Source: Rhodoferax sp.
GTDB taxonomy: Bacteria; Pseudomonadota; Gammaproteobacteria; Burkholderiales; Burkholderiaceae_C
Assembly (NCBI RefSeq): GCF_028689295.1
Contig: NZ_JAQTWL010000015.1
Span: forward strand, 1-64,000
Length of the DNA: 64,000 nucleotides
Direction of reading: 5' to 3'
Under the pieces are notes generated by a model. That model was not told the DNA's origin, did no database searches, and was given only the letters and a program-made list of their open reading frames with translations. Below, in pieces: positions 21,788-46,827 of the stretch (the first letter of the stretch is position 1; the number at the start of each line of letters is the position of its first letter). The translations under genes were made by a program, and so were the position numbers.

Positions 21788-22140
21788 TGGTCAATTTGCA
21801 AGTCACCACCAGTCTGCTTGGCTTGGGCCTGGCCGTCGTCATCATTTATTTGCTGCGCCGCGACCACATCTACATTCTGCATGGTCTGTTCTGGATTGTG
21901 ATTGCCGCACTGGGCGCGCTGTTGGGGCTGTGGCCGGGGCTGATTGACCGCATTGCCGGCTGGGTAGGCATCAGCTATCCGCCGGCGGCGCTGTTGCTGG
22001 GGGCCGTGCTGGTGCTACTGGTCAAATCTCTTTACTCGGACATCACGCAAACCCGGCTTGAGCGCCAGTTGCGCCGGCTCAATCAACGCATTGCCTTGCT
22101 CGACGTGCAGGCGCCCGATGACCCGCCGCGCGGGCATTGA
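21787..22140 (+). CDS. DUF2304 family membrane protein
   Basis: A 117-residue protein with three predicted membrane segments and a C-terminal amphipathic helix (TRLERQLRRLNQRIALLDVQ), the layout of the DUF2304 family. Members commonly sit beside polyprenyl-phosphate glycosyltransferases and are thought to support them. Here it is coupled to the TMTC-like gene by a one-base overlap, which supports a shared glycosylation role. No dedicated polyprenyl-phosphate sugar synthase is adjacent. Confidence 0.75.
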   Translation: MVNLQVTTSLLGLGLAVVIIYLLRRDHIYILHGLFWIVIAALGALLGLWPGLIDRIAGWVGISYPPAALLLGAVLVLLVKSLYSDITQTRLERQLRRLNQRIALLDVQAPDDPPRGH

Positions 22141-22337: not shown

Positions 22338-25307
22338 ATGCAAGCTGTCGCTGTCGTGTGGATTGCCCGTCTGGTGTTGTTTTTTGCCGCCCTGATGGCT
22401 GCCATGCAACCGGCACATGCGGGGCCGGCCAACCCTGTGCCGCAGCAGATCATGCAGCCTGACGGCACGACGTTTCAGGCCATCATGCAGGGCGACGAGT
22501 TTCAGGGCTGGATGGAAACCGACGACGGTTACACGGTCGTCAGGAACCCGGCCACCGGGTTTTTCGAATACGCCCAACAAAATCCTGCTGGCGAATTGAT
22601 TCCTTCGGGCAACATCGTCGCGTCCAGCGTCCAGAGACAAATGAAAGCCCAGGGCCTGATGCCACCGCAAGGGCTTCGCCCGCCAGCCAATACCGGCCTG
22701 CAAGAGTACCAGGCAGAATTTCTGAACAACGTCCGCGCTTCAAAAACGCCAGGCATCCAACAGTCTGACCCGCAATATACCCCGGCGCTGACCGGCACCT
22801 GGGCGCCGACACTGGTCACCGGGACCAAAAAAATACTGGTGATTCTGGTTAATTTTAAGGGCGTCAGCCTGAGTTCCGGCGCCGCCAGCTACTGGAACAA
22901 TGTCGTGCATAACCCGGTGGACCCCTCCGTGGCCACTTACTACGAAGACAATTCTTTTGACGCCCTCGCGATATCGCCGGTGCCTCACACCCAGGTCGCC
23001 AGCCCCGCCGGGGTCGTCACCGTCACGCTGGCGCAGAACCATCCCAATTGCGGCATCAATTGCAGTTATGCCACCGAGTCAGGCTGGATCAACAACGCGC
23101 TGGCCGCCGCCGCACCCTATGTTGACTTTGCAGCGCTCGACACCAATCTCAACGGCACAATTTCCGTTGACGAAACGCTCATCTATTTCGTCCTGGCGGG
23201 TTACGAAACCTCTGCTGGCTCAGGACTGTCGCCATCCATTTGGGCGCACGCCTGGGGCGGCAGCGGTGTCAGTGCCGGCGGCAAATGGGTTGACCACTGG
23301 GCCTTGAACGGAGAGATGTACGACGCCACCACCCGAATGACGATGGGCGTGATTGCGCACGAGATGGGCCACGCCATGGGCGGCCTGCCTGATCTGTACG
23401 ACATCTCAGGCACGAATCAGGGTTTGGGGGTTTTCAGCCTCATGGCTAGCGGCTCCTGGGGCTATACAGCGGGCGATGTAGCCGCCGGCGCAACGCCGGT
23501 CGGCCTCGACGCCTGGAGCCGGCAATACCTCGGCTGGTCCAATCCGCAGTATCCCGCCAGTGGCAGCGGTTTTACATTCGTCAGCGGGCTGGCCAGCCCC
23601 AACGCTTCAGTCATGCTGATGAACAATGTCCTGAGTAGCAGTGAATACTGGCTCATCGAGAACCGTCCACCAGTGAGCTGGGACGCCGGGATGTACTACA
23701 TGCCCGAGATGCGCGGCTGGACCGGCGGGTTGCTGATCCAGCATATCGACCTGAACATCGGCACCAAATGGGCCAACAGCTTTAACCGCTACACCTACAA
23801 CCCGCATCAGGGGAATATGGCCGAAGAGCCATCGACTGCGCTTTGCTCCCTGAAAGCGACCAGCGGTTCATCACGAGGTTGCAAGACCATTCTTTATTAT
23901 TCCGGCAACAGCGCGGTGTTCAATGGCACCTCCACGCCCAACTCCAACTACTACAGCGGCGCTGCCAGCAACCTTGGCATCAGCGCCATTTCAGCGCCCG
24001 GGAGCACCATGACCGGGACGCTGCAAACGGCATCCAGCACCCCCAGCTACACGTTATCGATGGCCAAAACAGGCACCGGCGCGGGCACCATCATCAGCAG
24101 CCCGGCCGGCATCGATTGCGGCGCCACCTGCAGCGCATATTACACCGATGCCCCCACGGTTACCCTCACGGCCACGCCATCCGCCTACAGCACCTTCACA
24201 GGCTGGAGTGGCAGTGGCTGCTCGGGCACCGGTACTTGCGTGGTCAGCATGAGCGCGGCGCGCAGCGTTACAGCCACTTTTAGCATTCTTGAAATCCTGA
24301 CCGTCAGCAAAACAGGCACTGGCGCGGGCACCATCACCAGCAGCCCGGCCGGTATCAGTTGCGGCGCCACCTGTAGCGCAGGCTATAGCGATGGCGCCTC
24401 GATCACGCTCACGGCCACGCCAGACGCCTACAGCACCTTTACCGGATGGAGTGGCAGTGGCTGCTCGGGCACCGGCACTTGCGTGGTCGGCATGAGCGCG
24501 GACCAGAGCGTAGCGGCCAGCTTCGATCTCAACCCGGTGGATTCAAGCCTCTCCAACATCTCCACCCGTGGCCGCGTGCAAACCGGTGACAGCGTGATGA
24601 TCGGCGGCTTCATCATCGATGGGGCAACGGCCAAAACAGTCTTGATCCGCGCCCGCGGCCCGTCGCTGTCGGCCTATGGCGTGCCCGGGGTGCTGGCCAA
24701 TCCGAAAGTTGACCTGTATTCGGGCCCGACCGTGATCGCCAGCAATGACAACTGGGGCAGCGCGACCAATGCGGCTGACATCACGGCCACCGGGCTGGCA
24801 CCGACCAATTCACTCGAGTCGGCCATCCTGACCACCCTGAGCCCGGGCGCCTACACGGCTATTGTCAGCGGTGTCGGCAACACCTCGGGCGTTGGCATTG
24901 TGGAAGTGCTGGAGATGGACAACCCGGCGGCGCCGCTGATCAACATCTCCACCCGGGGCCAGGTGCAAACCGGCGACAACGTGATGATTGGCGGCTTCAT
25001 CATTGATGGCACCGGCCCCAGGACGGTGCTTATCCGGGCGCGTGGGCCATCCCTGTCGGCCTATAACGTGCCGGGTGTGCTGGCCGACCCGATGATGGGG
25101 GTGTATTCGGGCCCGACGGTGATTGCCAGCAATGACGACTGGGGCACTGCGACCAATGCGGCTGACATCACCGCCACCGGCCTGGCGCCCACCAATGCAA
25201 TGGAATCGGCCATCCTGACCACGCTGGACCCAGGGGCCTACACGGTGATTGTGCGCGGCTTCAACAACACCACCGGGGTCGGCATTGTGGAAGTGCTGGC
25301 GCAGTAG
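22338..25307 (+). CDS. Secreted M6-family metalloprotease with C-terminal repeats
   Basis: A 989-residue exported protease. The signal peptide ends near AHA|GP (about 29). The catalytic region has HEMGHAMGGLPDLYD, with HEMGH at 341-345, the M6 (immune inhibitor A-like) pattern. From about residue 575 come two 81-residue bacterial repeat domains with GWSGSGCSGTGTC, then two copies of an approximately 125-residue module beginning ISTRG (residues about 738-988). The final 760 bp are almost identical to the ends of two other proteases in the window. The M4 protease gene follows after nine bases. The 197-bp upstream gap should contain the promoter, but I see no convincing -35/-10 pair. Confidence 0.9.
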   Translation: MQAVAVVWIARLVLFFAALMAAMQPAHAGPANPVPQQIMQPDGTTFQAIMQGDEFQGWMETDDGYTVVRNPATGFFEYAQQNPAGELIPSGNIVASSVQRQMKAQGLMPPQGLRPPANTGLQEYQAEFLNNVRASKTPGIQQSDPQYTPALTGTWAPTLVTGTKKILVILVNFKGVSLSSGAASYWNNVVHNPVDPSVATYYEDNSFDALAISPVPHTQVASPAGVVTVTLAQNHPNCGINCSYATESGWINNALAAAAPYVDFAALDTNLNGTISVDETLIYFVLAGYETSAGSGLSPSIWAHAWGGSGVSAGGKWVDHWALNGEMYDATTRMTMGVIAHEMGHAMGGLPDLYDISGTNQGLGVFSLMASGSWGYTAGDVAAGATPVGLDAWSRQYLGWSNPQYPASGSGFTFVSGLASPNASVMLMNNVLSSSEYWLIENRPPVSWDAGMYYMPEMRGWTGGLLIQHIDLNIGTKWANSFNRYTYNPHQGNMAEEPSTALCSLKATSGSSRGCKTILYYSGNSAVFNGTSTPNSNYYSGAASNLGISAISAPGSTMTGTLQTASSTPSYTLSMAKTGTGAGTIISSPAGIDCGATCSAYYTDAPTVTLTATPSAYSTFTGWSGSGCSGTGTCVVSMSAARSVTATFSILEILTVSKTGTGAGTITSSPAGISCGATCSAGYSDGASITLTATPDAYSTFTGWSGSGCSGTGTCVVGMSADQSVAASFDLNPVDSSLSNISTRGRVQTGDSVMIGGFIIDGATAKTVLIRARGPSLSAYGVPGVLANPKVDLYSGPTVIASNDNWGSATNAADITATGLAPTNSLESAILTTLSPGAYTAIVSGVGNTSGVGIVEVLEMDNPAAPLINISTRGQVQTGDNVMIGGFIIDGTGPRTVLIRARGPSLSAYNVPGVLADPMMGVYSGPTVIASNDDWGTATNAADITATGLAPTNAMESAILTTLDPGAYTVIVRGFNNTTGVGIVEVLAQ
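24066..24530 (+). repeat. Two tandem 243-bp coding repeats in the M6 protease
   Basis: Unit one begins at 24066 and unit two at 24309, an offset of 243 bp or 81 codons. Both encode KTGTGAGTI, SPAGI, CGATCSA and FTGWSGSGCSGTGTCVV with few differences. The cysteine-paired pattern resembles surface bacterial repeat domains of the InlB-repeat type. Confidence 0.85.
24548..25307 (+). repeat. 760-bp C-terminal module, copy A
   Basis: Encodes two ISTRG modules and ends exactly at the stop codon. It aligns without length change to 27506-28265 (direct, offset 2958) and to 35555-36314 (inverted). Copy A is the most divergent: its second module has GTGPRT in place of GANPQT and SAYNV in place of SDYGV. 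Confidence 0.9.
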
Positions 25308-25316
25308 GAAATGACA

Positions 25317-28265
25317 ATGAAATTATCTTTTTGGACCAAAATTGCGCTGTCGGGCGCCCTCTTTTTTCAGCTTGGGGCAGCGCTGGCGGCTGTTTCAGAA
25401 GCGCAACTTCGTGACTCTGGCGCACGCGTTGTTGCCAACAGTCAGACCGGTGTTGTCCGCTTTGTCGGTTTTGATGCCCCTCTGGCAGTCCGTCAACAAA
25501 TTGACGCTGCGCGCCTGCAGATGCCAGCACAGATGGCGGCTACACAGCACTTGTCTGATTACGCTGAACTCTTTGGTCTGCGCGATGTTTCCAGCGAAAC
25601 AACCGTCATCAAACACCGTGATGCCAAAGACGGCAGGTCAGTGACACGCTACCAGCAAAATTTCCAGGGCATCCCGGTCATTGGCGGTGAGCTGATCGTC
25701 AACCAGACAGCGCAGCGCCAGTTAAGCTCCATCAACGGCAGAGTATCACCACAACTTCAGATCGCCACCACGCCGGTCATTACATCGCAGCAGGCGATGG
25801 CCATTGCCCGCGAGGCCATGGTCAAGTGGTACTCGATTGCCGCCGATGAGTTTCTGGTGCCGGTGCCAACTTTGTCGATTTATGACTCCAGGCTGATATC
25901 CCCACTGGCTGCGCCGGTGGCGCTGGTTTGGCGGCTTGATGTCACGACCAAAGGCGATTTGCCGATTCGGGAGTTCGTGGCCGTCAACGCCGTCAACGGC
26001 GCGATCACCCTTCACTTCAACCAGGTGCCGCACGCCAAGAACCGGCTGACCTATGACGCCAACAACACCGCCGCCGACCCGGGCACGCTGGTCTGCAACG
26101 AATCAAATCCGACCTGTTCCGGCGGTGTCGCCGATGCCGTCTATGCCCATCGTTTTGCTGGCGCCACCTACGATTTTTATTCGGCAACGCTCGGTCGCGA
26201 CAGCATTGACGGTCTGGGCATGACCTTGGTCTCTTTGGTGCGCATTTGCCCGGTGGGAGAGTCATGTCCTTACCAGAATGCCTACTGGAATGGCGTCAAG
26301 ATGTCGTACGGGGCAGGATTCGCAACCGGGGAAGATGTGGTGGCGCACGAATTGACCCACGGCGTGACCGAAAAGGAATCCAATCTTTTTTACTACTACC
26401 AGGCCGGCGCCATCAATGAATCACTGTCTGACGTTTTTGGCGAACTGGTGCAACAAAACGACCCGACCGGGACGGTCGTCCCGGCCACAAAATGGCTGAT
26501 GGGCGAAGACTTGAGCATTGGCGCCTTGCGCAGCATGTCCAACCCAACGCTTTATGGCGACCCCGACCGCATGACCAGCGCCAACTACTACACAGGCTCT
26601 TTGGACCAAGGGGGCGTCCACACCAACAGCGGCGTCAACAACAAGGCAGCCTACCTGATGGTGGACGGCGGCACTTTCAATGGCCAAACCGTCAGTGCGA
26701 TTGGCTTGGTGAAGACGGCACAAATTTACTACCGGGCGCAGACTTCGCTGCTGACGTCCGGATCGGATTATCTTGACCTTCATCACGCACTCTATCAAGC
26801 CTGCCAGGACTTGATTGGCAGCGCAGGCATTGGCGCGGCTGATTGTCTGGCAGTGCAGCGCGCCACCCTTGCTGTTGAAATGAACGCATCACCAAGCGCC
26901 GGCTTCATGCCTGCCGCCGTGCTGTGTCCGGCTGGCCAAAGTGTCAGCAGCACCCTATTTGCCGACGGGTTTGAAGGCGGAACCAGCAATTGGTTATTTA
27001 CCCACGCCGCGGGAACAGACGACTGGAGCAGAACGACCGGGTATGCCTCCACCGGTATTTACTCGCTCTACGGATTTGATCCGACGACCAGTTCTGACCT
27101 TAGAGCCGCCATGGCCAGCAGCGTGACGCTGCCTGCCAACGCCCACCTGTGGTTCAACCACGCGTTCGGTTTTGAAAAGGGCACTACAAAATTCTATGAC
27201 GGTGGCGTGCTGGAATACAGCAGCAACGGTGGCGCCAGTTGGATCGATGCGGGCAGTTTATACACCGAAGGCCAGAATTATGGCGGCGTGCTTGCTGTCG
27301 GCAACCCGTTACAAGGTCGTTCCGCGTTTGTTGGCGCAAGCCATGGCTATGTGTCAAGCCGCTACAACCTTGCCACCCTCGCAGGGCAAAACGTGCGCTT
27401 TCGCTGGCGAGTCGGCACCGATTCAGGCGCCAATTTATTGGGATGGATCGTTGACGACGTCAAAATCCACGTGTGTGCCGCGGATGTCAACCCGGACACT
27501 CCCCGCCTCTCCAACATCTCCACCCGCGGCCAGGTGCAAACCGGCGACAGCGTGATGATCGGCGGCTTCATCATCGACGGGGCAACAGCCAAAAAAGTTC
27601 TGATCCGCGCCCGCGGTCCGTCCCTGTCGGCCTATGGCGTGCCCGGCGTGCTGGCCAATCCGAAAGTTGACCTGTATTCGGGCCCAACCGTGATTGCCAG
27701 CAACGACAACTGGGGCAGCGCGACCAATGCGGCTGACATCACGGCCACCGGGCTGGCGCCGACCAATTCACTCGAGTCGGCCATCCTGACCACCCTGAGC
27801 CCGGGCGCCTACACGGCCATCGTCAGCGGTGTCGGCAACACCTCGGGCGTTGGCATTGTGGAAGTGCTGGAGATGGACAACCCGGCGGCGCCGCTGATCA
27901 ACATCTCCACCCGGGGCCAGGTGCAGACCGGCGACAACGTGATGATCGGCGGCTTCATCATCGATGGGGCCAACCCCCAAACGGTGCTGATCCGGGCGCG
28001 TGGCCCGTCGCTGTCGGACTACGGCGTGCCGGGCGTGCTGGCCGACCCGACGATGGAGGTGTATTCGGGCCAGAGCGTGATTGCCAGCAATGACAACTGG
28101 GGCACTGCGACCAATGCGGCTGACATCACCGCCACCGGCCTGGCGCCCACCAATGCAATGGAATCGGCCATCCTGACCACCCTGGACCCAGGGGCCTACA
28201 CGGTGATTGTGCGGGGCTTCAACAACACCACCGGGGTCGGCATTGTGGAGGTGCTGGCGCAGTAG
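25317..28265 (+). CDS. Secreted M4 (thermolysin-like) metalloprotease
   Basis: A 982-residue exported protease. A signal peptide ends around ALAA (about 24), followed by an FTP/PepSY propeptide (QNFQGIPVIGGELIV). The M4 catalytic domain has HELTH at 344-348 and the third zinc ligand Glu368 in GAINESLSDVFGEL. A jelly-roll-like domain spans about 545-725, then two ISTRG modules to the end. The ATG at 25317 was chosen over one six bases earlier because AGGAA at 25306-25310 is properly spaced only for it. The gene lies nine bases after the M6 protease and shares its 3' end sequence. Confidence 0.92.
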   Translation: MKLSFWTKIALSGALFFQLGAALAAVSEAQLRDSGARVVANSQTGVVRFVGFDAPLAVRQQIDAARLQMPAQMAATQHLSDYAELFGLRDVSSETTVIKHRDAKDGRSVTRYQQNFQGIPVIGGELIVNQTAQRQLSSINGRVSPQLQIATTPVITSQQAMAIAREAMVKWYSIAADEFLVPVPTLSIYDSRLISPLAAPVALVWRLDVTTKGDLPIREFVAVNAVNGAITLHFNQVPHAKNRLTYDANNTAADPGTLVCNESNPTCSGGVADAVYAHRFAGATYDFYSATLGRDSIDGLGMTLVSLVRICPVGESCPYQNAYWNGVKMSYGAGFATGEDVVAHELTHGVTEKESNLFYYYQAGAINESLSDVFGELVQQNDPTGTVVPATKWLMGEDLSIGALRSMSNPTLYGDPDRMTSANYYTGSLDQGGVHTNSGVNNKAAYLMVDGGTFNGQTVSAIGLVKTAQIYYRAQTSLLTSGSDYLDLHHALYQACQDLIGSAGIGAADCLAVQRATLAVEMNASPSAGFMPAAVLCPAGQSVSSTLFADGFEGGTSNWLFTHAAGTDDWSRTTGYASTGIYSLYGFDPTTSSDLRAAMASSVTLPANAHLWFNHAFGFEKGTTKFYDGGVLEYSSNGGASWIDAGSLYTEGQNYGGVLAVGNPLQGRSAFVGASHGYVSSRYNLATLAGQNVRFRWRVGTDSGANLLGWIVDDVKIHVCAADVNPDTPRLSNISTRGQVQTGDSVMIGGFIIDGATAKKVLIRARGPSLSAYGVPGVLANPKVDLYSGPTVIASNDNWGSATNAADITATGLAPTNSLESAILTTLSPGAYTAIVSGVGNTSGVGIVEVLEMDNPAAPLINISTRGQVQTGDNVMIGGFIIDGANPQTVLIRARGPSLSDYGVPGVLADPTMEVYSGQSVIASNDNWGTATNAADITATGLAPTNAMESAILTTLDPGAYTVIVRGFNNTTGVGIVEVLAQ
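27506..28265 (+). repeat. 760-bp C-terminal module, copy B
   Basis: Identical in length and nearly identical in sequence to copy C (35555-36314), which is inverted. Over about 250 residues the two encoded sequences differ at one position (STRGQ versus STRGR). Similarity stops at the stop codon; the flanks differ. Confidence 0.92.
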
Positions 28266-28296
28266 CTTGGTGATTTCGGCGCGAAACAAGTCACAT

Positions 28297-28926
28297 TCAT
28301 CGGCGCTGGCGGCGCAACCCCAGCGCCGTGCCAAAGGCCAGCAAACCGGCCAGCAAGATCATTCCCCACTCACTCAGGGTAGGAATGGCTTGCGGAGTTG
28401 ATGCGCCTCCTGCCGGTGACGAAAGGGTGATCGTGTAGGGGCCTGTTGCTCCTTCACTGTCAGAACCGAAGTGATCCAGCACACTGATCGGGTCATCAGT
28501 GCAATCACCGTCATCATTCGCGCAAAAAACGATGTTTGATGAATCTCTTGCATCGATATTGTTGTCGCCAAATGCCAGGTAGTACGTGCCCGGAGTCACG
28601 TTAAAGACAATCTGGCTGTCAAGACCGCCACCGCCGTCGTCATCACCCCAAAGTCCATGGCCTGCAGCATCGAACAGGATCAGGTTGCTGTCTATGTTTG
28701 TCGCTGGCGCATAAAAGGTCACTGTAGCATTGGCGGCAAATACCAGTTTGTATAAATCAACATCTCCTGCTACTCCAAGTGTGCCGTTGATTTGTGTCGT
28801 GTTCGCTGCAACCGACTGGGCGGTGCCAAGCGTTTGCCCTGCATCTCCTGTTTCAGCATAAATTGCAGCATGGCTGCTGGAAACGAGCATATAAAACAGG
28901 GCTGATGCCAAAAGTTTTAATTTCAT
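28297..28926 (-). CDS. IPTL-CTERM protein with PPC-like domain
   Basis: A 209-residue exported protein. The signal peptide is MKLKLLASALFYMLVSSSHA. The middle looks like a bacterial pre-peptidase C-terminal-type beta domain (DVDLYKLVF, GTYYLAFGDNN). The C-terminus has IPTLSEWGMILLAGLLAFG followed by LRRQRR: the IPTLxxWG motif, a membrane helix and a basic tail, the signal thought to be processed by exosortase H. The frame extends upstream to 29139, but the signal peptide fixes the start at 28926. It is divergent from the next gene. Confidence 0.85.
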   Translation of the reverse strand: MKLKLLASALFYMLVSSSHAAIYAETGDAGQTLGTAQSVAANTTQINGTLGVAGDVDLYKLVFAANATVTFYAPATNIDSNLILFDAAGHGLWGDDDGGGGLDSQIVFNVTPGTYYLAFGDNNIDARDSSNIVFCANDDGDCTDDPISVLDHFGSDSEGATGPYTITLSSPAGGASTPQAIPTLSEWGMILLAGLLAFGTALGLRRQRR

Positions 28927-29163
28927 AGTTTGCCTTCTTGAACTTGACAGGTTACGACAGTGACCGTTGGAGCGATAAAAGTATACGCTCTGGCAGGTAA
29001 TTTGTAACAGTTTGCGACTACAAAACCATGATTGCGGCGAATGCGCAACAGTCGAGCAGAGTATTCTGGAATTAGCGGAAATGATATTGCGATAGCGCCA
29101 ATTTTTGTGGGCAAAATGCTGGCTGATATTGAATATCACCCAAATATCATCCCCAATGTCCTC

Positions 29164-29964
29164 ATGAAGAAAGAAAAAATGTACGCCCTATCCCGAACTC
29201 TTGTCATGCGCTTGAGCGCCGCCATGGCTGCTGCCGTGCTGATGCTGATGTCTGCTCCCGCCAGCGCCCAGCTCACTGAAATCATGTTTTGCGGTAACAC
29301 GAGCCGAACCGGTGCCAACCTGTATGGCGCTGCCGGCCCTTACACCGAAGTGACTGGATGCGCACCGACTGGGAGCACCAGGGCGATGCTGGTTTCCCGC
29401 TCCGGCACTATCGGCGGCAATGGCGCCGCCTGGCTTGCCTATCTCAATGGTGGCGGCAAGATCATCACGGAATTCTCAATATCTCATACCGTTTACAACG
29501 AAATTTATGGCACCGCCTACCCACAAGGTGCCTGGTATGGAAACTGCCAGGACAATGCGATGCCGCAGGTCAAACTCAACCCGGCGCATCCTTTCTGGGT
29601 GGCCAACAATATTGCGGAAACACCCATCAATGAAGCAAGTTGCGGGTATAGGCTGGATACCCTGGTTGCCGGAGAATCCGCCGTGACCGCATTGGGTGGC
29701 GCACTGGACGGTGCCGTGATGTTTGCCATCCGACCCCAGGGGACTGCTGGCATGCTGTATCTGCTCGAAGCAGACTGGCAAGATAACGAGGCATCCTATA
29801 CAGACGACTCCAGAGCGTTCATGGCCGCACTGATTGGCAGCCAATGGGTCAACGCCGGACCGGTGGCGGCCAAGCCAATTCCGACCTTGTCCCAATGGGG
29901 AACCATGCTGCTGGCTGGCCTGCTCGGGCTGTTTGCGCTGATGCGACTGCGCCGCCAGATGTGA
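29164..29964 (+). CDS. IPTL-CTERM surface protein
   Basis: A 266-residue exported protein with a signal peptide ending APASA and a C-terminal IPTLSQWGTMLLAGLLGLF plus RLRRQM sorting tail. The central domain is not recognised; it has four or so cysteines and LYLLEADWQDNEASYTDDSRAF. The ATG at 29164 was chosen; ATG at 29179 is a reasonable alternative with a slightly better purine-rich site. A strong terminator follows. It is convergent with the next gene. Confidence 0.8.
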   Translation: MKKEKMYALSRTLVMRLSAAMAAAVLMLMSAPASAQLTEIMFCGNTSRTGANLYGAAGPYTEVTGCAPTGSTRAMLVSRSGTIGGNGAAWLAYLNGGGKIITEFSISHTVYNEIYGTAYPQGAWYGNCQDNAMPQVKLNPAHPFWVANNIAETPINEASCGYRLDTLVAGESAVTALGGALDGAVMFAIRPQGTAGMLYLLEADWQDNEASYTDDSRAFMAALIGSQWVNAGPVAAKPIPTLSQWGTMLLAGLLGLFALMRLRRQM

Positions 29965-29978
29965 TTTCGAGCCATATG

Positions 29979-30012
29979 AGCTAAGGGTGCAACAGCACCC
30001 TTAGCTGTTTTT
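29979..30012 (+). terminator. Rho-independent terminator
   Basis: A perfect 12-bp stem (AGCTAAGGGTGC, 29979-29990; GCACCCTTAGCT, 29995-30006) with an AACA loop and then GTTTTT. It ends the plus-strand IPTL gene. The stop codon of the minus-strand gene (30001-30003) lies within the stem; there is no T-run in that direction. Confidence 0.92.
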
Positions 30013-30624
30013 GCGGCCCAAGGCGACCAGTGCGCTCAAGCCCATCAAGCCAACGAGAGCCATCTGGCCCCATTGTGACAGCGTGGGAATGGCCTGAGTG
30101 GTCGCAACAGGCGGGGTGAAATCAAGGGTGATGTCGGAGACATACATCTCTTGAGAACCGTATTGGGCATCATAGTGCGGTTCGAAGACGATGGCGTCAT
30201 GAGCAAAATTCCTGGTGAATTGACGCTCATTACACCGACCCGAGTACTGCACAAAATTGTCGTTGGTTTCAATCAGGTCCGGGCCAAGATACCACTTGAC
30301 AATGTCACCTGGCAAGGGCGTTTGGCATGACCCATAACCATAGGTAACAAACGTACTCGAGGTCATGGCACCGGATGTTCTGATGGTGACTCTGCCTTGC
30401 GTGTTGTTGCCAAGCATGAAAAATCCGTTTCCACTTCCGATACTGTGGTTGACCTGCGCTGTAGTTCCTGGCGAAACTTCAAAAGTCACTCCGGGAATCG
30501 ACAGGCTGGCGATGGGCGTGCCAGACGGGTAAGCGCTGAAATCCAGTGTGACGGGAACAGCATGGGATAAGGTGGACGCGCACCAGAACGAGGTTATCGA
30601 AACCAGGCGGTACAGAGTTTTCAT
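30001..30624 (-). CDS. IPTL-CTERM surface protein
   Basis: A 207-residue exported protein with a short signal peptide (ending SHA) and a beta-rich body beginning VPVTLDFSAYPSGTP. The tail is IPTLSQWGQMALVGLMGLS then ALGRKNS, an IPTLxxWG sorting signal with a weak basic end. It follows the next IPTL gene by 19 bases and is probably cotranscribed with it. The body is not recognised. Confidence 0.82.
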   Translation of the reverse strand: MKTLYRLVSITSFWCASTLSHAVPVTLDFSAYPSGTPIASLSIPGVTFEVSPGTTAQVNHSIGSGNGFFMLGNNTQGRVTIRTSGAMTSSTFVTYGYGSCQTPLPGDIVKWYLGPDLIETNDNFVQYSGRCNERQFTRNFAHDAIVFEPHYDAQYGSQEMYVSDITLDFTPPVATTQAIPTLSQWGQMALVGLMGLSALVALGRKNS

Positions 30625-30643
30625 TTTTTTGAGACGAACTGGG

Positions 30644-31384
30644 TTAAAGCCGTTGCCGACGCAAAGTGATGATTGCGCCTGCGGCCAGCAGACTGGACAA
30701 AATGATCATGCCCCATTCGGACAAGGTGGGAATGGGTGTGGCCACTGCAGCCGTCCCGGTGGCTTCCACCTGAAAGCCGCCTATGGCGTCTGTGCCTGAG
30801 GAGTCGTAAGGGGTGAATCCGTCTGCATCATTGTAAAAACGCTTGACAAAATAGCCGCTGGTATCCGAGGAATCTGCACTCACCAACACCTGGGAGCAGG
30901 AGTTGTCGAGCTGATACGCTGCCGATGGGTTAGAGAAGCGAATGATCAAGCCACCACCGGGAAAATTGAAGTTTGCCTGCGAAGTAAAGCGGAGCTCAAA
31001 ATTACCAATGATCGTGTCACCCGTCGGATTGGCCGGGGTTTGCGTATTGGTCACAAGGGTGGTAAACGTTCCGGAAGGAATGTCACCCCCATTGACGGTC
31101 GTCGGCGCCATGTCAATTTGCAATTGAATGTTTTCGACAGTTTGTGCGCCCAGGTCAAACGCGAGCGTATCCCCTGTTTTGAGAATGAAAGCGGGAATGT
31201 TTTGGTATATAAACCCGGCAAATGGCGGCCATCCCGGAGCACCCCCTCCAAACGGGTAACAGTTATGGACCGAAGTGGACGAAGTAGGGGCGATCGTAAT
31301 GGTCGCGGCCCACACCGGCGTGTATGTCATGAGCAAAAACGCACTGGCCCGTAGAACCACTTTAAGGCACCTTAAAGCACTCAT
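30644..31384 (-). CDS. IPTL-CTERM surface protein
   Basis: A 246-residue exported protein with a signal peptide ending PVWA and a tail of IPTLSEWGMIILSSLLAAG then TLRRQRL. The body is beta-rich and unrecognised, with two cysteines. The ATG at 31384 begins MSALRCLKV; an 11-residue upstream extension is not signal-like. It is the first gene of a two-gene unit, and a palindrome lies about 40-60 bp upstream. Confidence 0.82.
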   Translation of the reverse strand: MSALRCLKVVLRASAFLLMTYTPVWAATITIAPTSSTSVHNCYPFGGGAPGWPPFAGFIYQNIPAFILKTGDTLAFDLGAQTVENIQLQIDMAPTTVNGGDIPSGTFTTLVTNTQTPANPTGDTIIGNFELRFTSQANFNFPGGGLIIRFSNPSAAYQLDNSCSQVLVSADSSDTSGYFVKRFYNDADGFTPYDSSGTDAIGGFQVEATGTAAVATPIPTLSEWGMIILSSLLAAGAIITLRRQRL

Positions 31385-31422
31385 TTCAATTCCTTGTGTT
31401 AGATGGGAGGGAGTCAATGTAT

Positions 31423-31443
31423 AACCACAACATTATTGTGGTT
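31423..31443. promoter_or_regulatory. Perfect palindrome, possible operator
   Basis: AACCACAA (31423-31430) and TTGTGGTT (31436-31443) are perfect inverted arms around a five-base spacer. The site lies 39-59 bp upstream of the minus-strand IPTL gene at 31384. No T-run follows in either direction, so a terminator is less likely than a binding site for a dimeric regulator. A possible -35 TTGACC lies further upstream (about 31483-31488). Confidence 0.4.
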
Positions 31444-31492
31444 TCAGTTTAAATGTGAGAGCAATAAAAAGCAATTTCTTTTTTGGTCAAGG

Positions 31493-32422
31493 CTATTCCG
31501 CCATATCCTGTCCGAACTCACCGGTCCGGTAGATCGGAAAGTAGCTGGAAGCCGCCTGCTCGCCACGCGCAAGGCTGGTATAGGCTTCACGGTCGAGGAT
31601 CGCGCCGAGGAAGTGCGCAGTGTGCCGATCTGTCGTCCAGCCTTGTTTGTATTGCGCCAGCCCGCTCGTGTCGGCTTCGGCAAGGCCCGATCCCCCGCCC
31701 CAGTTGATGAAGCGAACCTTGCCACGGAAGGTATCCAGGGCAACGCGATCAAGCAGGTAAGAGGCGCCCAGCCGATAGCCCGTTTCGGTGAATGCCGCAA
31801 GGTGAGCATGCGCCACATTTCCCTGAATCAGCATCATCTGCGCGCCGACAATGACACCATCGTGCAGCGCGCGCATCAGAACCGTCCCCGGCAGTGCGAG
31901 CATCCCCCGAAATGCTTCGACCGAAAACCGCCTCATGCCAGTGATGTTGTACCGTCTGACCAGCTGCGCGTATAGCCCGACCCATTCATCCAGATGGTCA
32001 AGCGGACGAGGGGGCATATCGCATTCCAGTTTTCTGGATGCCCTGCGTGCGCAGGCTCGATGGTGCCTTGAGAACGCCTCGTCGAGCGGCACGGTCAAGT
32101 CAGCCACATAGTGCGTCTTGAACGGGCGAACAATGTCGAAACCGGCAAATGGCTTGCCATCGATCGGACCTGACAACGGGTCCGTGACCAGCGCCACGCT
32201 GACCAGTCCCGAGCCACGGAGGTCATCGATATCGGCGGCAAGTCCCCGCCAGTCGTTACAGCAGAAGAGTGGGTAGGGGCCCATCGCATCGTGGCGGTCG
32301 GAACCCGGAATGCGTCGCTCAATGATCCATCCTCCGCTGTTGCGAAGGCGTCTCGGCGTGCCCTGGCTGGCAAACGTGGCGAGGTAATCCGGGTGTAGGT
32401 AGGCGTGCGAATCAATTTGCAT
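31493..32422 (-). CDS. GNAT-fold (FemAB-like) N-acyltransferase
   Basis: A 309-residue cytoplasmic protein resembling the acetyltransferase-6/FemAB-like GNAT group often found in polysaccharide clusters. Supporting segments are VGLYAQLVRRYNITGMRRFSVEAF, GVIVGAQMMLIQGNVAHAHL and a C-terminal LDRVALDTFRGKVRFINWGGG. It is the last gene of a three-gene minus-strand unit, eleven bases after the formyltransferase. A role in adding an acyl group to a sugar or amino sugar is inferred. Confidence 0.7.
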   Translation of the reverse strand: MQIDSHAYLHPDYLATFASQGTPRRLRNSGGWIIERRIPGSDRHDAMGPYPLFCCNDWRGLAADIDDLRGSGLVSVALVTDPLSGPIDGKPFAGFDIVRPFKTHYVADLTVPLDEAFSRHHRACARRASRKLECDMPPRPLDHLDEWVGLYAQLVRRYNITGMRRFSVEAFRGMLALPGTVLMRALHDGVIVGAQMMLIQGNVAHAHLAAFTETGYRLGASYLLDRVALDTFRGKVRFINWGGGSGLAEADTSGLAQYKQGWTTDRHTAHFLGAILDREAYTSLARGEQAASSYFPIYRTGEFGQDMAE

Positions 32423-32432
32423 TCTGGGGGCG

Positions 32433-33422
32433 TCAAGCGCGATTGTGGCGGGGGTTGATACGATGAATCCAACTCGCCGGCCAGAAATCCAGGCCTGTGA
32501 CCGATAGCCGCTGATGGTCGGCGCTTGTAAAAGACAGGGGTGCGCCGTTTTCGCCATCGCCAATAGCCGTGACAGGCCACCACCGCCCGTCAATTTGCGT
32601 CTGGATGCGCAGGAATGCGCGCAACCGGCGCTCCCACTCCTCGCGACAAAGCGCCGAAGGGTCGGTAACGCGCGTAGCCAGTTCGTACGCGCTGCGGTTG
32701 TACTCGCAAGCGATGCCATGCTGGGCACGACCGTCGTCGCAAGCTACGATCGAATCCAGTAGCGCGGGAAGCAGTGCGCGTGCGGCGAGCGCCTTGCGCA
32801 ATTCGAGTTCTGCCGCGGTATCGTGGGTGCGCACAGGCACTTGGGTGGTCGCAAGAATATGGCCTGCGTCCACCGCTTCGGTCATCAGGTGAAAAGACAG
32901 GCCGCTGCTGGGGGCTCCCATGTAAAGCGCCCAATTGCTGACGCGCCATCCCCTGAATCCGGGCAGGCTGCCATTGTGGTAGTTCACAACACGGTCGAAC
33001 CGCTCCAAAAGCGGTTGGCGGAAACGCCGGGTGCAGTACAGATTGATGGCTACCGGTGTGCCGGGCAACTGATCGATGCACCTGAGGATCGACGCATGAT
33101 TGGGGTCCCCGGTGGGCATGACCATGATCGCCGTGCCAGAAGGCTGTGCCAATCGATACAGGTTCAAAGTGCGAAGGTCCAGGCTTTGCTCCCACCGCCC
33201 GGAGGCAAGCATCACCTGGAGGCGTCGCTTGCCGCGCGCAAGATGCCAGTCCCATTGTTGTCGCCAGGTCGAGACGTGGTCAGGAATGCAGATGCAGGCG
33301 CAGTAAATGTCTTCTCGTGGTCGCAGCGCAGCGAGCAGTGCCGGCAAAAGAACCCGCGAAGCGATATGCAGCGGATCGGTGAACACCACCAAGGCTCTCG
33401 GCGAGTCACATGGTGACGTCAC
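32433..33422 (-). CDS. Formyltransferase-fold protein, probable sugar N-formyltransferase
   Basis: A 329-residue protein with the formyltransferase core: VVNYHNGSLPGFRG corresponds to the NxHxSLLPxxRG motif and DAGHILATTQVPV supplies the conserved aspartate. Members use formyl-tetrahydrofolate to formylate amino sugars or Met-tRNA. The surrounding acyltransferase genes favour an amino-sugar substrate, an inference. It overlaps the upstream acetyltransferase gene by 17 bases. The last 100 or so residues are not recognised. Confidence 0.72.
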   Translation of the reverse strand: MTSPCDSPRALVVFTDPLHIASRVLLPALLAALRPREDIYCACICIPDHVSTWRQQWDWHLARGKRRLQVMLASGRWEQSLDLRTLNLYRLAQPSGTAIMVMPTGDPNHASILRCIDQLPGTPVAINLYCTRRFRQPLLERFDRVVNYHNGSLPGFRGWRVSNWALYMGAPSSGLSFHLMTEAVDAGHILATTQVPVRTHDTAAELELRKALAARALLPALLDSIVACDDGRAQHGIACEYNRSAYELATRVTDPSALCREEWERRLRAFLRIQTQIDGRWWPVTAIGDGENGAPLSFTSADHQRLSVTGLDFWPASWIHRINPRHNRA

Positions 33423-34044
33423 GAGAGATCTTGCCTACCATTCGTTTTGCCGGGTTGCCCACATAAACGCCGTCGGGTTCGGTGTCCGACACCACCACTG
33501 CCCCCGCACCGATAAAGCACCGGTCTGCGATCCTGACACCGTCACGAATCACTGCGCCGAGTCCGATGCAGCAACGCGCGCCAATGGTCACTTTCCCGCC
33601 CGTGACCGCGCCCGAAGCAATAAAACAGTGATCTCCGACCACGCTATGGTGACCGATATTTACCCCTGCGCGCACGGTCACATCGGGCCCAAGCGTGACG
33701 AAGGGTTGCAGGTTTGCTTGCTCGTAGATGAGCACGTTTTCGCCGATCGCGGTTTCGGGCCAGACAATCGCCCGGCTGGACACATAACTTGCCAGCGTGT
33801 AGCCCATCGCTTTGGCCTGGGCACATTTCGCGATGCGCAGTCCATTCATTTGCCGAAAACCCAGGGGAATCAGGACGTCATGGCCAGCCGGCGGAAAGCG
33901 CGTTGGAAGCAAGTCGAAGGCCACCAGCGGCAATCCCTCGTGGGCGTCCGTCGATACATAAGACGCATCCACTGTAAACGCCGCGACCGTTCGGCCGGCA
34001 TCGCGCTCCAGGCACGAGCGCGCCAGCGTCGCAAAGGTCTTCAA
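33406..34044 (-). CDS. Left-handed beta-helix sugar O/N-acetyltransferase (PglD-like)
   Basis: At least 212 residues. The C-terminal two-thirds is a hexapeptide-repeat helix with GENVLIYEQANLQPFVTLG, GHHSVVGDHCFIASGAVTGG and GAGAVVVSD..YVGNPAK, typical of the NeuD/PglD acetyltransferases. The first canonical start codon is TTG at 34044, yet the frame continues upstream with AKPVVLFGLKTF, which looks like the family's nucleotide-binding strand. No ATG, GTG or TTG begins that part, so a non-standard start or start-site damage is possible. First gene of the acyl-transfer trio. Confidence 0.72.
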   Translation of the reverse strand: MKTFATLARSCLERDAGRTVAAFTVDASYVSTDAHEGLPLVAFDLLPTRFPPAGHDVLIPLGFRQMNGLRIAKCAQAKAMGYTLASYVSSRAIVWPETAIGENVLIYEQANLQPFVTLGPDVTVRAGVNIGHHSVVGDHCFIASGAVTGGKVTIGARCCIGLGAVIRDGVRIADRCFIGAGAVVVSDTEPDGVYVGNPAKRMVGKISRDVTM

Positions 34045-34082
34045 ACCGAACAGAACGACGGGCTTAGCGATGATTGCGCCTG

Positions 34083-35438
34083 CTACTGGCGGCGCCGATT
34101 CAGCGCGAGCGCGGTGGCGCCCAAACTCAACGCCAACAGGATCAAGCCGAACGACGAAAGTGTCGGCACCTGCGTGATCGACGCTGTCGCGTTCTCGTAG
34201 GCACCCATGTCCACTGCGGGTCCCTTGATACGGGCCAGTCCGTCCAGATCGCCGGTGATATCGACGGGAACTTGCGCACTGTTGCCGGTGTCTTTTGCCG
34301 GTGAAATCACCTGCAGGTGAAAGTCGTTCGGACCGATGAACTGCGGGTTGGTGTACAGCGTGCCCGGCCCGGCGCTGAAGTACTCGCTCCCGTTGTCGAA
34401 TACCAGATTGTGGTCATTGGTGAAAGTGGCCTCGAAGTCGGGGTCAATCGAGATACCGGTGCCGGAGTGGCCACTGACAATGTTGTTCGCCAGGATACCG
34501 GTGATCGTGGCGCCAAGGTCGCTGCGGCCATTCACCATGATGCCGCGGGCGCCGTTGGTGATGGTGTTGTTGACGACGGTAAAGGCTCCGCTGCCCTGGC
34601 TGACGTTAAGCCCGATGCCACCCGGCTGTCCGGCAACATCGATCTGCCCACCGCGCAAGAGGTTGTTGATGACCCGCGCCGTCAGTGATCCGCCAGGCGC
34701 AAACTGATAAATCGAGATGCCATTATTGAAGCCCTGGCCGCTAATGTCGTTGTCAAGGACATCGACACTCAGCGCGTGAACGCCGTTGGCGGCCTGGATC
34801 ACCGCATTCTGGGTCGAAACTCCCGTCTGGACGATCACGTTGCCGACCACGCGTCCGGTGGCATCGCTCTCGAAACCGCCCACCGAGATCGCACCCACCT
34901 GGTCACCGACATCGAAACCGTTCACGGTGATCTGGTTGCCGGACACGTCGAAGTGGACCGGGCCGTAGGGTGGCTGGGCATTGCCGCTGTAAATTTCAAT
35001 GGCCGTGCCGTAACTGAAAGTGTCGAGGATGACGTTGCTGCGAAAGGTGACATCGAACGTCCCGGAGCCGCCCTGAATCCCCATGAGACGGCCATTGGCA
35101 ATGGTCATGCCCTCGACCACGTTGGTTGCCGACACGTCACCACCGACGACGATGATACTGTTCGGCGAAGCGAAGACCGGGACGAATCCGGGAGCAGCGC
35201 GCAGCGTCAAGCTCTTGTCGTTGATTTGTGGGCTCTCGTTGATCGGGCCGTCGGTGGCAACTTCGACCACCTCGCCGACGGCGGCGGCGTCGATGCAGGC
35301 TTGCAGCGTGCCAGCGCACCCGAGCGACGGCCATGTGGCCGCATAAAGCGAAAGAGGACTAGCCACCATGACGGCACACGCAAGCACAAGCCTGGCGGAC
35401 ATTGAAGTGACCGGTCGCGCAAATGATAATAATTTCAT
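34083..35438 (-). CDS. Secreted beta-helix protein with variant IPTL-like tail
   Basis: A 451-residue exported protein. A signal peptide (ending LYAA) precedes a right-handed parallel beta-helix of the polygalacturonase/choice-of-anchor type, seen as repeated NNxI and GNxI strands (NNTITNGARGIMV, NNIVSGHSGTGI) and ending VDMGAYENA. The tail VPTLSSFGLILLALSLG then NRRRQ resembles an IPTL-CTERM signal but lacks the WG. An AGGGG site precedes the ATG at 35438. It lies 38 bases upstream of the acetyltransferase TTG. Confidence 0.85.
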   Translation of the reverse strand: MKLLSFARPVTSMSARLVLACAVMVASPLSLYAATWPSLGCAGTLQACIDAAAVGEVVEVATDGPINESPQINDKSLTLRAAPGFVPVFASPNSIIVVGGDVSATNVVEGMTIANGRLMGIQGGSGTFDVTFRSNVILDTFSYGTAIEIYSGNAQPPYGPVHFDVSGNQITVNGFDVGDQVGAISVGGFESDATGRVVGNVIVQTGVSTQNAVIQAANGVHALSVDVLDNDISGQGFNNGISIYQFAPGGSLTARVINNLLRGGQIDVAGQPGGIGLNVSQGSGAFTVVNNTITNGARGIMVNGRSDLGATITGILANNIVSGHSGTGISIDPDFEATFTNDHNLVFDNGSEYFSAGPGTLYTNPQFIGPNDFHLQVISPAKDTGNSAQVPVDITGDLDGLARIKGPAVDMGAYENATASITQVPTLSSFGLILLALSLGATALALNRRRQ

Positions 35439-35554
35439 GAATTCCCCTGGTGTTTTTCGTTGCCACATGGCGCGGGAAATCCTATTCGATTTCAACGAGT
35501 TACACAAGACCAGGTTTGATCCTGTGTCAGGATACTGACGCCATCCATGCAGCC

Positions 35555-36314
35555 CTACTGCGCCAGCACCTCCACAATGCCGACCCCGGTGGTGTTGTTG
35601 AAGCCCCGCACAATCACCGTGTAGGCCCCTGGGTCCAGCGTGGTCAGAATGGCCGATTCCATTGCATTGGTGGGCGCCAGGCCGGTGGCCGTGATGTCAG
35701 CCGCATTGGTCGCAGTGCCCCAGTTGTCATTGCTGGCAATCACGCTCTGGCCCGAATACACCTCCATCGTCGGGTCGGCCAGCACGCCCGGCACGCCGTA
35801 GTCCGACAGCGACGGGCCACGCGCCCGGATCAGCACCGTTTGGGGGTTGGCCCCATCGATGATGAAGCCGCCGATCATCACGTTGTCGCCGGTCTGCACC
35901 TGGCCCCGGGTGGAGATGTTGATCAGCGGCGCCGCCGGGTTGTCCATCTCCAGCACTTCCACAATGCCAACGCCCGAGGTGTTGCCGACACCGCTGACGA
36001 TGGCCGTGTAGGCGCCCGGGCTCAGGGTGGTCAGGATGGCCGACTCGAGTGAATTGGTCGGCGCCAGCCCGGTGGCCGTGATGTCAGCCGCATTGGTCGC
36101 GCTGCCCCAGTTGTCGTTGCTGGCGATCACGGTTGGGCCCGAATACAGGTCAACTTTCGGATTGGCCAGCACGCCGGGCACGCCATAGGCCGACAGCGAC
36201 GGCCCGCGGGCGCGGATCAGAACTTTTTTGGCTGTTGCCCCGTCGATGATGAAGCCGCCGATCATCACGCTGTCGCCGGTTTGCACGCGGCCACGGGTGG
36301 AGATGTTGGAGAGG
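35555..36314 (-). repeat. 760-bp C-terminal module, copy C (inverted)
   Basis: The inverted partner of copy B at 27506-28265. By eye there are only a handful of base differences over the compared stretches, and one residue change overall. It ends at the stop codon of the protease; the sequence beyond is unrelated. Confidence 0.92.
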
Positions 36315-37924
36315 CGGGTATCCACCGTGGTGCCGACAAGAGCCACCTCAAACGTCGATCCGGCGCGGCTGAGCACTGAAACGCTGAATCCGTAACTGCT
36401 GTTGGTGTAGGTCTGGCCCGGACTCCACTGGGCGTTATAGAGGGCGAAGTCGGGATAGTTGCGGCCGCCCTGGTTGCAATTGACCGAGTCGTAATCGTTC
36501 GGAGTTGAATCAATGGGCACGGCCCAACCGGACTGGGAATTGAAAAAACAGGTGCCGCTGATGGCAGGCCGGTCGCCCTTGAATTCGTGGATGATGATGC
36601 CTTCATTGGGAAGACCATTGTCATATTGGGAAGGTATTCCTAAACCTTTCACTCGCGCTTCGACAGTAAAGTAATGCGCACTTGCGCCGCTGCACGGCGA
36701 CCCGGTGATGCAAATCTTCATGATCTTGGGCAGGGTGCTGAGCGGCAACGCCCCGGCCTCCAGAGTCACGGTCGTGCTGTCGCTGGTAGTGGTGACGATT
36801 TGATTGTCAACCGGGATCCAGCCCAAATAGTCCTTGTGCGCAGTGATGTAACCGTCGCCCGGCTCGCTGCAATACAGGTCATTTGAAGAGCCCGAATTTT
36901 TGGACACATACGAGCCACACAGGGCGTACTGGGCGGCCACCCGGTTGCTCATCATGTCCCACGGGCTGTCATAGGCGTGATAGACCCAGCCAGAGTGCGG
37001 CAAGCCCAGGCTATGGCCCATTTCGTGGGCATAGGTTCCGGTTTCCTGACCCCACGGGGGTTCCCAGGTGGCACCATAAACCTTGGCATCGACCGAACTG
37101 TAGTAGCCCCCGCCCCAGGCGCAGCAATCAAGGTCATTGCTCAACACAAAATTGATGTTGTCGTAATTTTTGAAGTCAATGCCCTGCGCCCGTCCAAGCG
37201 CTGTGCCATCATCGCTTATGGCTTGCAGATTTGCACAGGCGCTGCTCCAGCCACAGGGCGCGTAGTAGCTTTTGGGATGCGGCAGTGTCAGCCAGCCGCC
37301 CGCTGCGCCTACGCCACCCAGCCCACCAACATCACCAATCCATGAGAACTGGTCCCAGGAAGTTTTTTTGAAAAACCCGTTGATGGTCGCGGGACTCGCC
37401 TCGCCCACAGGTGGTGTGTCAGGATTGTTGAGGTTGGTGAAAAAAAGCGGTGGGTGCGGCACGGCCACATCGTCAGAAAATTTAAGCAACAGGTAAATGA
37501 CCTTCTTCGTTCCGAACACGCCGGGTGCCAGACCTGGGCCTTGCTGCATCCGGACCGGGGCGATGGTGTCAACAACCAAAGTCACTGAACTCTGACTCTG
37601 CGCTAATCCCATCTGCTTTGCCACCACCTGCCCGGAGACAAGCACACGCTTGCCAAAGTAAAACACGGCCAGGTTGTCTTGCCCATTCATGTCCAGCGCT
37701 ACCGACTTGCCATCTGGCAATACCAGCGTATGCAGCATTGCACCGGCTGCACCGAGTTCTGGGTGCGGGTCGCCCCATACGGTGTTCAAAATTCCCTCGA
37801 TGCTTGTGCCAGGTTGTTGCGCGTGCAATCCTGTGGCTGCCGTCAGCAGGGTGGCACCGGCAAGAAGCAATGCGCCAAGCCGGCTCAGGCTCATGCCGAT
37901 AAAAGTTGACCAGTTTTTAAACAT
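35555..37924 (-). CDS. Secreted M6-like (metzincin) metalloprotease
   Basis: A 789-residue exported protease with a signal peptide ending GLHA. The catalytic motif HEMGHSLGLPH (about 300-310) supplies three zinc ligands and WDMMSN supplies the Met-turn, the metzincin pattern. The N-terminal 200 residues are not recognised. It ends with two ISTRG modules nearly identical to those of the M4 protease. The ATG at 37924 was chosen over one six bases earlier because AGGGAA at 37931-37936 is correctly spaced only for it. It is transcribed opposite to the other two proteases. Confidence 0.9.
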   Translation of the reverse strand: MFKNWSTFIGMSLSRLGALLLAGATLLTAATGLHAQQPGTSIEGILNTVWGDPHPELGAAGAMLHTLVLPDGKSVALDMNGQDNLAVFYFGKRVLVSGQVVAKQMGLAQSQSSVTLVVDTIAPVRMQQGPGLAPGVFGTKKVIYLLLKFSDDVAVPHPPLFFTNLNNPDTPPVGEASPATINGFFKKTSWDQFSWIGDVGGLGGVGAAGGWLTLPHPKSYYAPCGWSSACANLQAISDDGTALGRAQGIDFKNYDNINFVLSNDLDCCAWGGGYYSSVDAKVYGATWEPPWGQETGTYAHEMGHSLGLPHSGWVYHAYDSPWDMMSNRVAAQYALCGSYVSKNSGSSNDLYCSEPGDGYITAHKDYLGWIPVDNQIVTTTSDSTTVTLEAGALPLSTLPKIMKICITGSPCSGASAHYFTVEARVKGLGIPSQYDNGLPNEGIIIHEFKGDRPAISGTCFFNSQSGWAVPIDSTPNDYDSVNCNQGGRNYPDFALYNAQWSPGQTYTNSSYGFSVSVLSRAGSTFEVALVGTTVDTRLSNISTRGRVQTGDSVMIGGFIIDGATAKKVLIRARGPSLSAYGVPGVLANPKVDLYSGPTVIASNDNWGSATNAADITATGLAPTNSLESAILTTLSPGAYTAIVSGVGNTSGVGIVEVLEMDNPAAPLINISTRGQVQTGDNVMIGGFIIDGANPQTVLIRARGPSLSDYGVPGVLADPTMEVYSGQSVIASNDNWGTATNAADITATGLAPTNAMESAILTTLDPGAYTVIVRGFNNTTGVGIVEVLAQ

Positions 37925-38094
37925 ACCCATTTCCCTGGAACTAAAAACAAATTGTCTAGCCGGAAAAGCGACACCACTTTCCCCAACTAACTCAGGTTTG
38001 CAATGTATCTGATTACAACCATGCCTGTGTGTATTCAGCCCTTTTTTACTGAACTACTTGGCTTTTGCGCCCTTGCCTGCTGTGCGGCGCAGGG

Positions 38095-46794: not shown

Positions 46795-46827
46795 GCCAAA
46801 AGTTCAGCGCCGGGAGCACTCGTTGGA

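Follow-up and report, generated by a model that had tools for sequence, protein, structure and literature searches.

Near-identical 3′ ends of three otherwise unrelated metalloprotease genes in a Rhodoferax genomic island: a C-terminal module that appears to evolve in concert

Why should three otherwise unrelated metalloprotease genes of one bacterium end in almost the same DNA? The genes lie in a stretch of 64,000 nucleotides (nt) from Rhodoferax sp. (assembly GCF_028689295.1, contig NZ_JAQTWL010000015.1, positions 1 to 64,000), hereafter the window. They encode an M6 family protease, an M4 (thermolysin) family protease and, on the opposite strand, an M6/metzincin-like protease, and we refer to their shared gene ends as tails A, B and C (Table 1). 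An initial annotation read the arrangement as a possible device for genome rearrangement or phase variation. Our analysis points elsewhere: the tails are probably a C-terminal module that has spread over different proteins and whose linked copies RecA-type ectopic gene conversion holds alike.

A repeat search and a direct, gap-free comparison both recover the shared ends without any length change, as first described. Each tail spans 769 nt, over which A and B agree at 717 positions, A and C at 724, and B and C at 756 (93%, 94% and 98-99% nt identity, respectively). The repeat search returns B and C as inverted arms of 764 nt at 99% identity (27502-28265 / 35555-36318), along with a second inverted pair of 779 nt at 94% (24530-25308 / 35554-36332). 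As proteins, B and C differ by one residue in 251, which agrees with the initial annotation, although the stretch given there stops at 36314 and so misses the first 9 nt or so of tail C, which starts at 36323. What had been called a 760-bp module consists in each case of two units in tandem, spaced by 387 nt and 76-83% identical to each other. No 40-mer is repeated in the window outside the three tails, and the likeness of the tails is far beyond chance. Homology begins at the domain start on the 5′ side and ends at the stop codon on the 3′ side, and the DNA beyond is unrelated, with mismatches at 27/30 (A/B), 22/30 (A/C) and 20/30 (B/C) of the positions just past the stop. Because the homology ends exactly there, recent illegitimate copying would have reached these limits only by luck.

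The near-identity is not explained by protein conservation alone, since synonymous sites are homogenised too: synonymous divergence (dS) is 0.17 for A/B and 0.037 for B/C. Between genomes, moreover, the median likeness of tails is about 47.5%, and conservation at the protein level as the sole cause is ruled out. So is duplication of whole protease genes, as the N-termini give no BLAST match. The differences that do exist are distributed unevenly. In tail A, 25 of the 48 differences from B and 25 of the 44 from C fall within one 170-nt patch (permutation values in Table 1), a width picked post hoc with the data already seen; dS is 0.31 inside the patch and 0.12-0.14 outside it. The longest exact run is 104 nt between A and B, and the 434-nt run shared by B and C has a p of 0.006. 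One possible origin of the A mosaic is that unit 1 converted unit 2: among 28 differing sites, the second unit of B resembles unit 1 at 17 and that of A at 9.

We then compared these tails with relatives in a search of 89 genomes of the genus (own genome included, one genome per species), in 150 sampled genomes of the order, and in a contig scan of GTDB, which may leave out the own species. The scan matched 470 stretches, 441 of which encode relatives; the best 80, representing 77 loci, were picked by likeness to the window tail and are not a random sample. From 155 tail open reading frames (ORFs) we kept the 137 that do not overlap and that have two units, no more and no fewer, near the C-terminus, dropping four pairs at 100% (L051, two of L063, L098) as overlapping ORFs. 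Amino acid (aa) identity of at least 80% was reached by 15 of 94 pairs at the same locus, 9 of 509 pairs located elsewhere in the same genome, and 8 of 8,628 pairs from different genomes (9,231 of 9,316 pairs, with a BLAST alignment of at least 200 aa). Same-locus and same-genome pairs differ by Fisher test at 1e-7, or 7e-6 without the window, with pairs that are not independent. By global alignment, a different way of counting, 18 of 96 same-locus pairs reach 80%, and in 17 of these the 60 nt past the stop are only 0.20-0.48 identical.

Individual loci display the same pattern. In a Thiohalocapsa metagenome-assembled genome (MAG; L044), three neighbouring genes have tails 90-97% alike in aa, while their N-termini share 39% over 673 residues, 49% over 110 and 81% over 101. 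Between two Spartobacteria proteins, L059_10810 and L070_17939, the N-termini agree at 68% over 336 residues and the tails at only 49%, which is, on sequence grounds, the pattern of a tail swap. In G002, another genome of the genus, contigs C3, C55 and C166 (L034, L035, L036) each end inside a tail; these contig-end tails are 90-94% alike (150/166, 114/122 and 115/122 nt) with unlike upstream DNA, and they resemble the window tails at 55-73% aa over the part present. The contig breaks look as if alike tails had broken the assembly. Among pairs with N-termini at least 50% alike, the tail is more alike than the N-terminus in 10 of the 12 drawn from one genome and in 8 of the 17 drawn from two (p = 0.006; genome-collapsed 0.009). 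A tree of 130 units from 8 of 29 genomes places the six window units in one clade (100/87) and the 34 units of G057, a complete genome from another family of the order, nearly in one clade (2 changes); the Thiohalocapsa MAG units cluster too. Tails are more alike within than between genomes for the own genome (G000), G057 and JAIPFF, but not for PLCM. From these observations taken together, the C-terminal module appears to be under concerted evolution across unrelated proteins.

What is being homogenised is a pair of tandem domains of about 129 aa that belong to NF038127 (DVUA0089 family); taken alone, tails A, B and C score 42.8, 36.4 and 36.6 bits, all above the curated cut-off of 29. None of the three matches PF04151 (PPC) at E ≤ 10 in HMMER, whose filters drop most weak matches; the sole PF04151 match in the own genome (28576-28764) lies outside the tails, and among 75 tails of the wider set one matches, at E 0.0059. 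The Pfam family found most often in the 75 tails matched 7 of them, and searching PDB sequences with a profile of the tail produced just two matches (E 0.21 and 0.9). The fold prediction has mean predicted local distance difference test values of 95.0 and 93.3, its best Foldseek matches being the PPC domain 5sv5 and ColG domain 3B, and its best Z, 10.1, that to the Tk-SP C-terminal domain. The units are thus predicted to be beta jelly rolls like PPC or collagen-binding domains. The three proteases are apparently secreted, judging from their families and from a crude hydrophobicity test that 101 of 130 tail proteins pass. By analogy with secreted proteases that carry PPC or collagen-binding domains in tandem, the tail may act in substrate or surface binding, or in secretion and maturation.

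The module is sporadic in the order and multi-copy in G000, G002 and G057. It occurs in two of the 150 sampled genomes of the order, the own genome with three copies and G057 with 17. Twelve of the G057 tail ORFs lie on one strand of C1 between 3,435,000 and 3,480,100. Among the 88 other genomes of the genus, tails are found in G002 only, the M6 protease part in G025 only, and the C protease part in none; the arrangement seen in the window is thus absent from all 88. The best 80 GTDB relatives are mainly from Verrucomicrobiota, with others from Competibacteraceae, Thiohalocapsa and Pseudomonadales MAGs. The proteins that carry the tail are varied, as 130 N-termini fall into 41 single-linkage clusters. 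Within the genus, G025 keeps both borders of the island, with other genes in between. Next to the left border, G002 has another tail-bearing gene, which runs off the contig inside its tail. The M6 orthologue of G025 is 62% identical, and the similarity stops at the last InlB-like repeat, where the tail would begin; no tail was found in the G025 genome searched, which is 86% complete. Judging from this orthologue, gain or loss of a tail takes place at the domain boundary, inside the island. The orthologue also carries, between two InlB-like repeats, a separate stretch that looks PPC-like by eye. In the window, two direct repeats of 212 nt (85% identical; 24065-24519) coincide with the InlB-like repeats of the M6 protease.

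Table 1. Coordinates of the proteases, tails and surrounding features in the window.
Feature	Position	Strand	Evidence or remark
M6 family metalloprotease that carries a pair of Flg_new_2 (InlB-like) repeats and ends in tail A	22338..25307	+	TIGR03296 (138.5 bits, above the cut-off), PF05547, PF18998
M4 (thermolysin) family metalloprotease that carries a MAM-like domain and ends in tail B	25311..28265	+	PF01447, PF02868, PF07504, PF20773
M6/metzincin-like metalloprotease with tail C	35555..37930	-	TIGR03296 40.1 of 110.8 bits; PF13688 22.8 of 27
Tail A	24539-25307	+	Two tandem PPC-like units, ~24539-24925 and 24926-25307; stop codon = end
Tail B	27497-28265	+	Direct partner of A, inverted partner of C
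Tail C	35555-36323	-	Against B: 9 mismatches/764 nt; exact run 434 nt
Mosaic stretch of tail A	24968..25137	+	Permutation 0.001 (A/B), 0/2000 (A/C)
Interval between B and C, 7,289 nt	28266..35554	.	IPTL-CTERM genes; GNAT-, formyl- and NeuD-type transferase genes
Left border of variable island: TPR membrane protein and 117-aa gene	19796..22140	+	Kept in G002, G025, G082, G088
Right border: polysaccharide-export/glycosyltransferase genes	44583..49775	-	Orthologues in the same order in G025

We therefore propose that a C-terminal module of two PPC-like beta-sandwich domains sits on three otherwise unrelated metalloproteases in a variable island, that RecA-type ectopic gene conversion between linked tails would homogenise the copies, and that the module may at times be gained, lost or swapped at its domain boundary. 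Loss of the M4 gene or inversion of the interval between B and C would be possible, rare by-products of the tail homology.

Several observations weigh against this proposal. Conversion is deduced from one assembly of the species, and uneven constraint could be partly behind the clustering of the A differences. The tail is better conserved than the N-terminus between genomes too (114 of 123 pairs), and the within/between contrast depends on the threshold, with p = 0.025, 0.016, 0.006 and 0.062 at 40, 45, 50 and 55% N-terminal identity. It is reversed in one of seven genomes, PLCM, whose units do not cluster by genome (22 changes, a count equalled or undercut in 70 of 500 shuffles), and the units of PLCN cluster weakly (21 changes). 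Units also sort by position in the tandem: on the tree, position takes 17 changes (mean of shuffles 44) and genome takes 32 (mean of shuffles 77). Of the 94 same-locus pairs, 79 remain below 80%, the 17 tails of G057 are at most 83% alike, and seven of the eight alike pairs from different genomes come from the Spartobacteria loci L059 and L070. Likeness is not always confined to the tail, since the 60 nt before it are 83-100% identical in five of the 18 alike pairs (37-55% in ten, 63-68% in three), and the L070 pair 3590/14172 shares its 3′ flank as well (97%), giving it the look of a segmental duplication.

Some of the same data could be explained by a single recent event in which the M4 and C proteases acquired the tail as a captured 3′ end, without later conversion. 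The tailless G025 orthologue, as a sign that tails come and go, would fit this, and so would the near identity of B and C. Composition also leans this way: GC content at third codon positions (GC3) is 0.81-0.85 in the window tails (24537-25307, 27495-28265, 35555-36325) and 0.66-0.74 in their own N-termini, as if the tails had a separate origin, with two core genes at 0.81-0.83. GC-biased conversion is a weak candidate for the source of the high tail GC3, with a mean excess of 0.02 over 117 genes, positive in 80. However, a one-off capture sits poorly with homology that ends exactly at the stop codons in the window, with the sharp 3′ ends of 17 of 18 comparable pairs, with the patchwork of differences in tail A, and with neighbouring paralogues whose N-termini have diverged while their tails stay alike. 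We consider it unlikely, if still a serious contender. More doubtful is a broader version of the conversion model, in which a genome-specific C-terminal cassette in many bacteria would be swapped and homogenised among unrelated secreted proteins, changing their binding or sorting tails in concert, and in which the homology here would also flip the IPTL-CTERM/transferase set between two protease units.

The initial annotation had instead stressed the geometry of the copies, which stands. Tails A and B are direct, and the distance from stop to stop (28265-25307) is 2,958 nt, made up of the 2,955-nt M4 ORF and the 3-nt gap that separates it from the M6 stop, so that a crossover between A and B would drop the M4 gene and leave a whole M6 gene. 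Tails B and C are inverted around genes that include five IPTL-CTERM matches (at 28300, 29875, 30022, 30656 and 34092) and the GNAT, formyltransferase and NeuD-type acetyltransferase genes, and crossovers between either pair would keep the reading frames whole. Homologous recombination needs only short identity, and the exact runs shared by A and B and by B and C exceed the usual requirement. Deletion or inversion is accordingly plausible in mechanical terms; a sign of actual inversion, deletion or switching is where the earlier proposal falls short. It would have B and C kept as inverted repeats that flip the interval, with A and B causing loss of M4, and a flip would place a mostly minus-strand gene set (seven of the eight interval ORFs taken as genes lie on the strand of C) co-directionally behind M4 rather than behind C. 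Yet both proteases would be unchanged after inversion, so that phase variation of the proteases is not predicted, and the interior genes would at most change their upstream neighbour. Thirty window ORFs were scanned, ten against both Pfam and NCBIfam and ten more against each of the two singly, and the matches listed include no recombinase family, though RecA would suffice. Inverted pairs make up 12 of the 96 same-locus pairs among the 137 tails, and 16 of the 18 pairs at 80% or above are direct, the two inverted ones both coming from this window. With no recombinase match listed for those 30 ORFs and no recurrence in other genomes, phase variation as the main explanation was set aside as improbable, and the best reading is that the near-identity is a product of conversion, not a designed switch. 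Least credible is an assembly artefact, in which the copies would be less alike or the interval wrongly oriented: the genome is a draft of 72 contigs and three G002 contigs end within tails of this kind, but the nine B/C and 44-48 A differences were kept apart, each tail is on a different intact ORF, several other assemblies hold alike neighbouring tails, and a complete genome, G057, has 17 of them, although no two exceed 83% identity.

The remaining features of the region are briefly described. The family matches of the tail-C protease are all under the curated cut-offs. The M4 stop is 31 nt from the first interval ORF, and the C stop is 47 nt from the ORF behind C. Two further IPTL-CTERM matches lie past the window on its own contig, C55 of the own genome (82554-82634 and 86811-86894), and the genome total is ten. 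A 12-pair terminator-like hairpin (29979-30006) lies between the convergent genes 29032-29964 and 30001-30624. A scan of 28150-38200 gave 9 promoter-like sites versus 4.4 expected and 11 terminator-like sites versus 9.8, counts that we do not use as evidence.

If conversion is the correct explanation, the locus would offer a clear case of concerted evolution limited to one 3′ domain module of otherwise unrelated genes, with parallels in distant phyla. It suggests pressure on the shared tail to stay matched among linked genes, perhaps through a common binding or sorting partner. Homogenisation may also explain why some draft assemblies break in such tails, and near-identical gene ends should be read with caution, not as switches. 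Our literature search, which covered titles and the starts of abstracts in open-licence PMC, found no paper on homogenisation of this tail.

Known systems provide partial parallels. The s3a and s3b domains of the collagenase ColG form the C-terminus of a secreted metalloprotease. As a tandem of two domains with a similar fold (PDB 5iku, 1nqj) they resemble the window tails, but sequence identity is 10-18%, and the likeness on the window side is that of a predicted fold. In the M4 protease E495 of Pseudoalteromonas, two C-terminal PPC domains bind protein substrate and mature forms retain one or none (PMC3327674). The parallel is a secreted M4 protease with two C-terminal domains, and the window units have a PPC-like predicted fold in the same place; the window units differ in being longer and in failing the PF04151 model. 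The phrase “gene conversion” is absent from the main text of that paper. With regard to process, concerted evolution of prokaryotic paralogues (PMC6053082) likewise leaves copies within a genome more alike than copies between genomes; there it involves paralogous genes of important pathways, whereas here it involves only a 3′ module behind unrelated N-termini. Meningococcal tpsA/tpsC (PMC3848433) similarly undergo recombination that swaps the 3′ end of a secreted-protein gene; the donors there are shorter tpsC cassettes, whereas the copies in the window are the 3′ ends of full ORFs.

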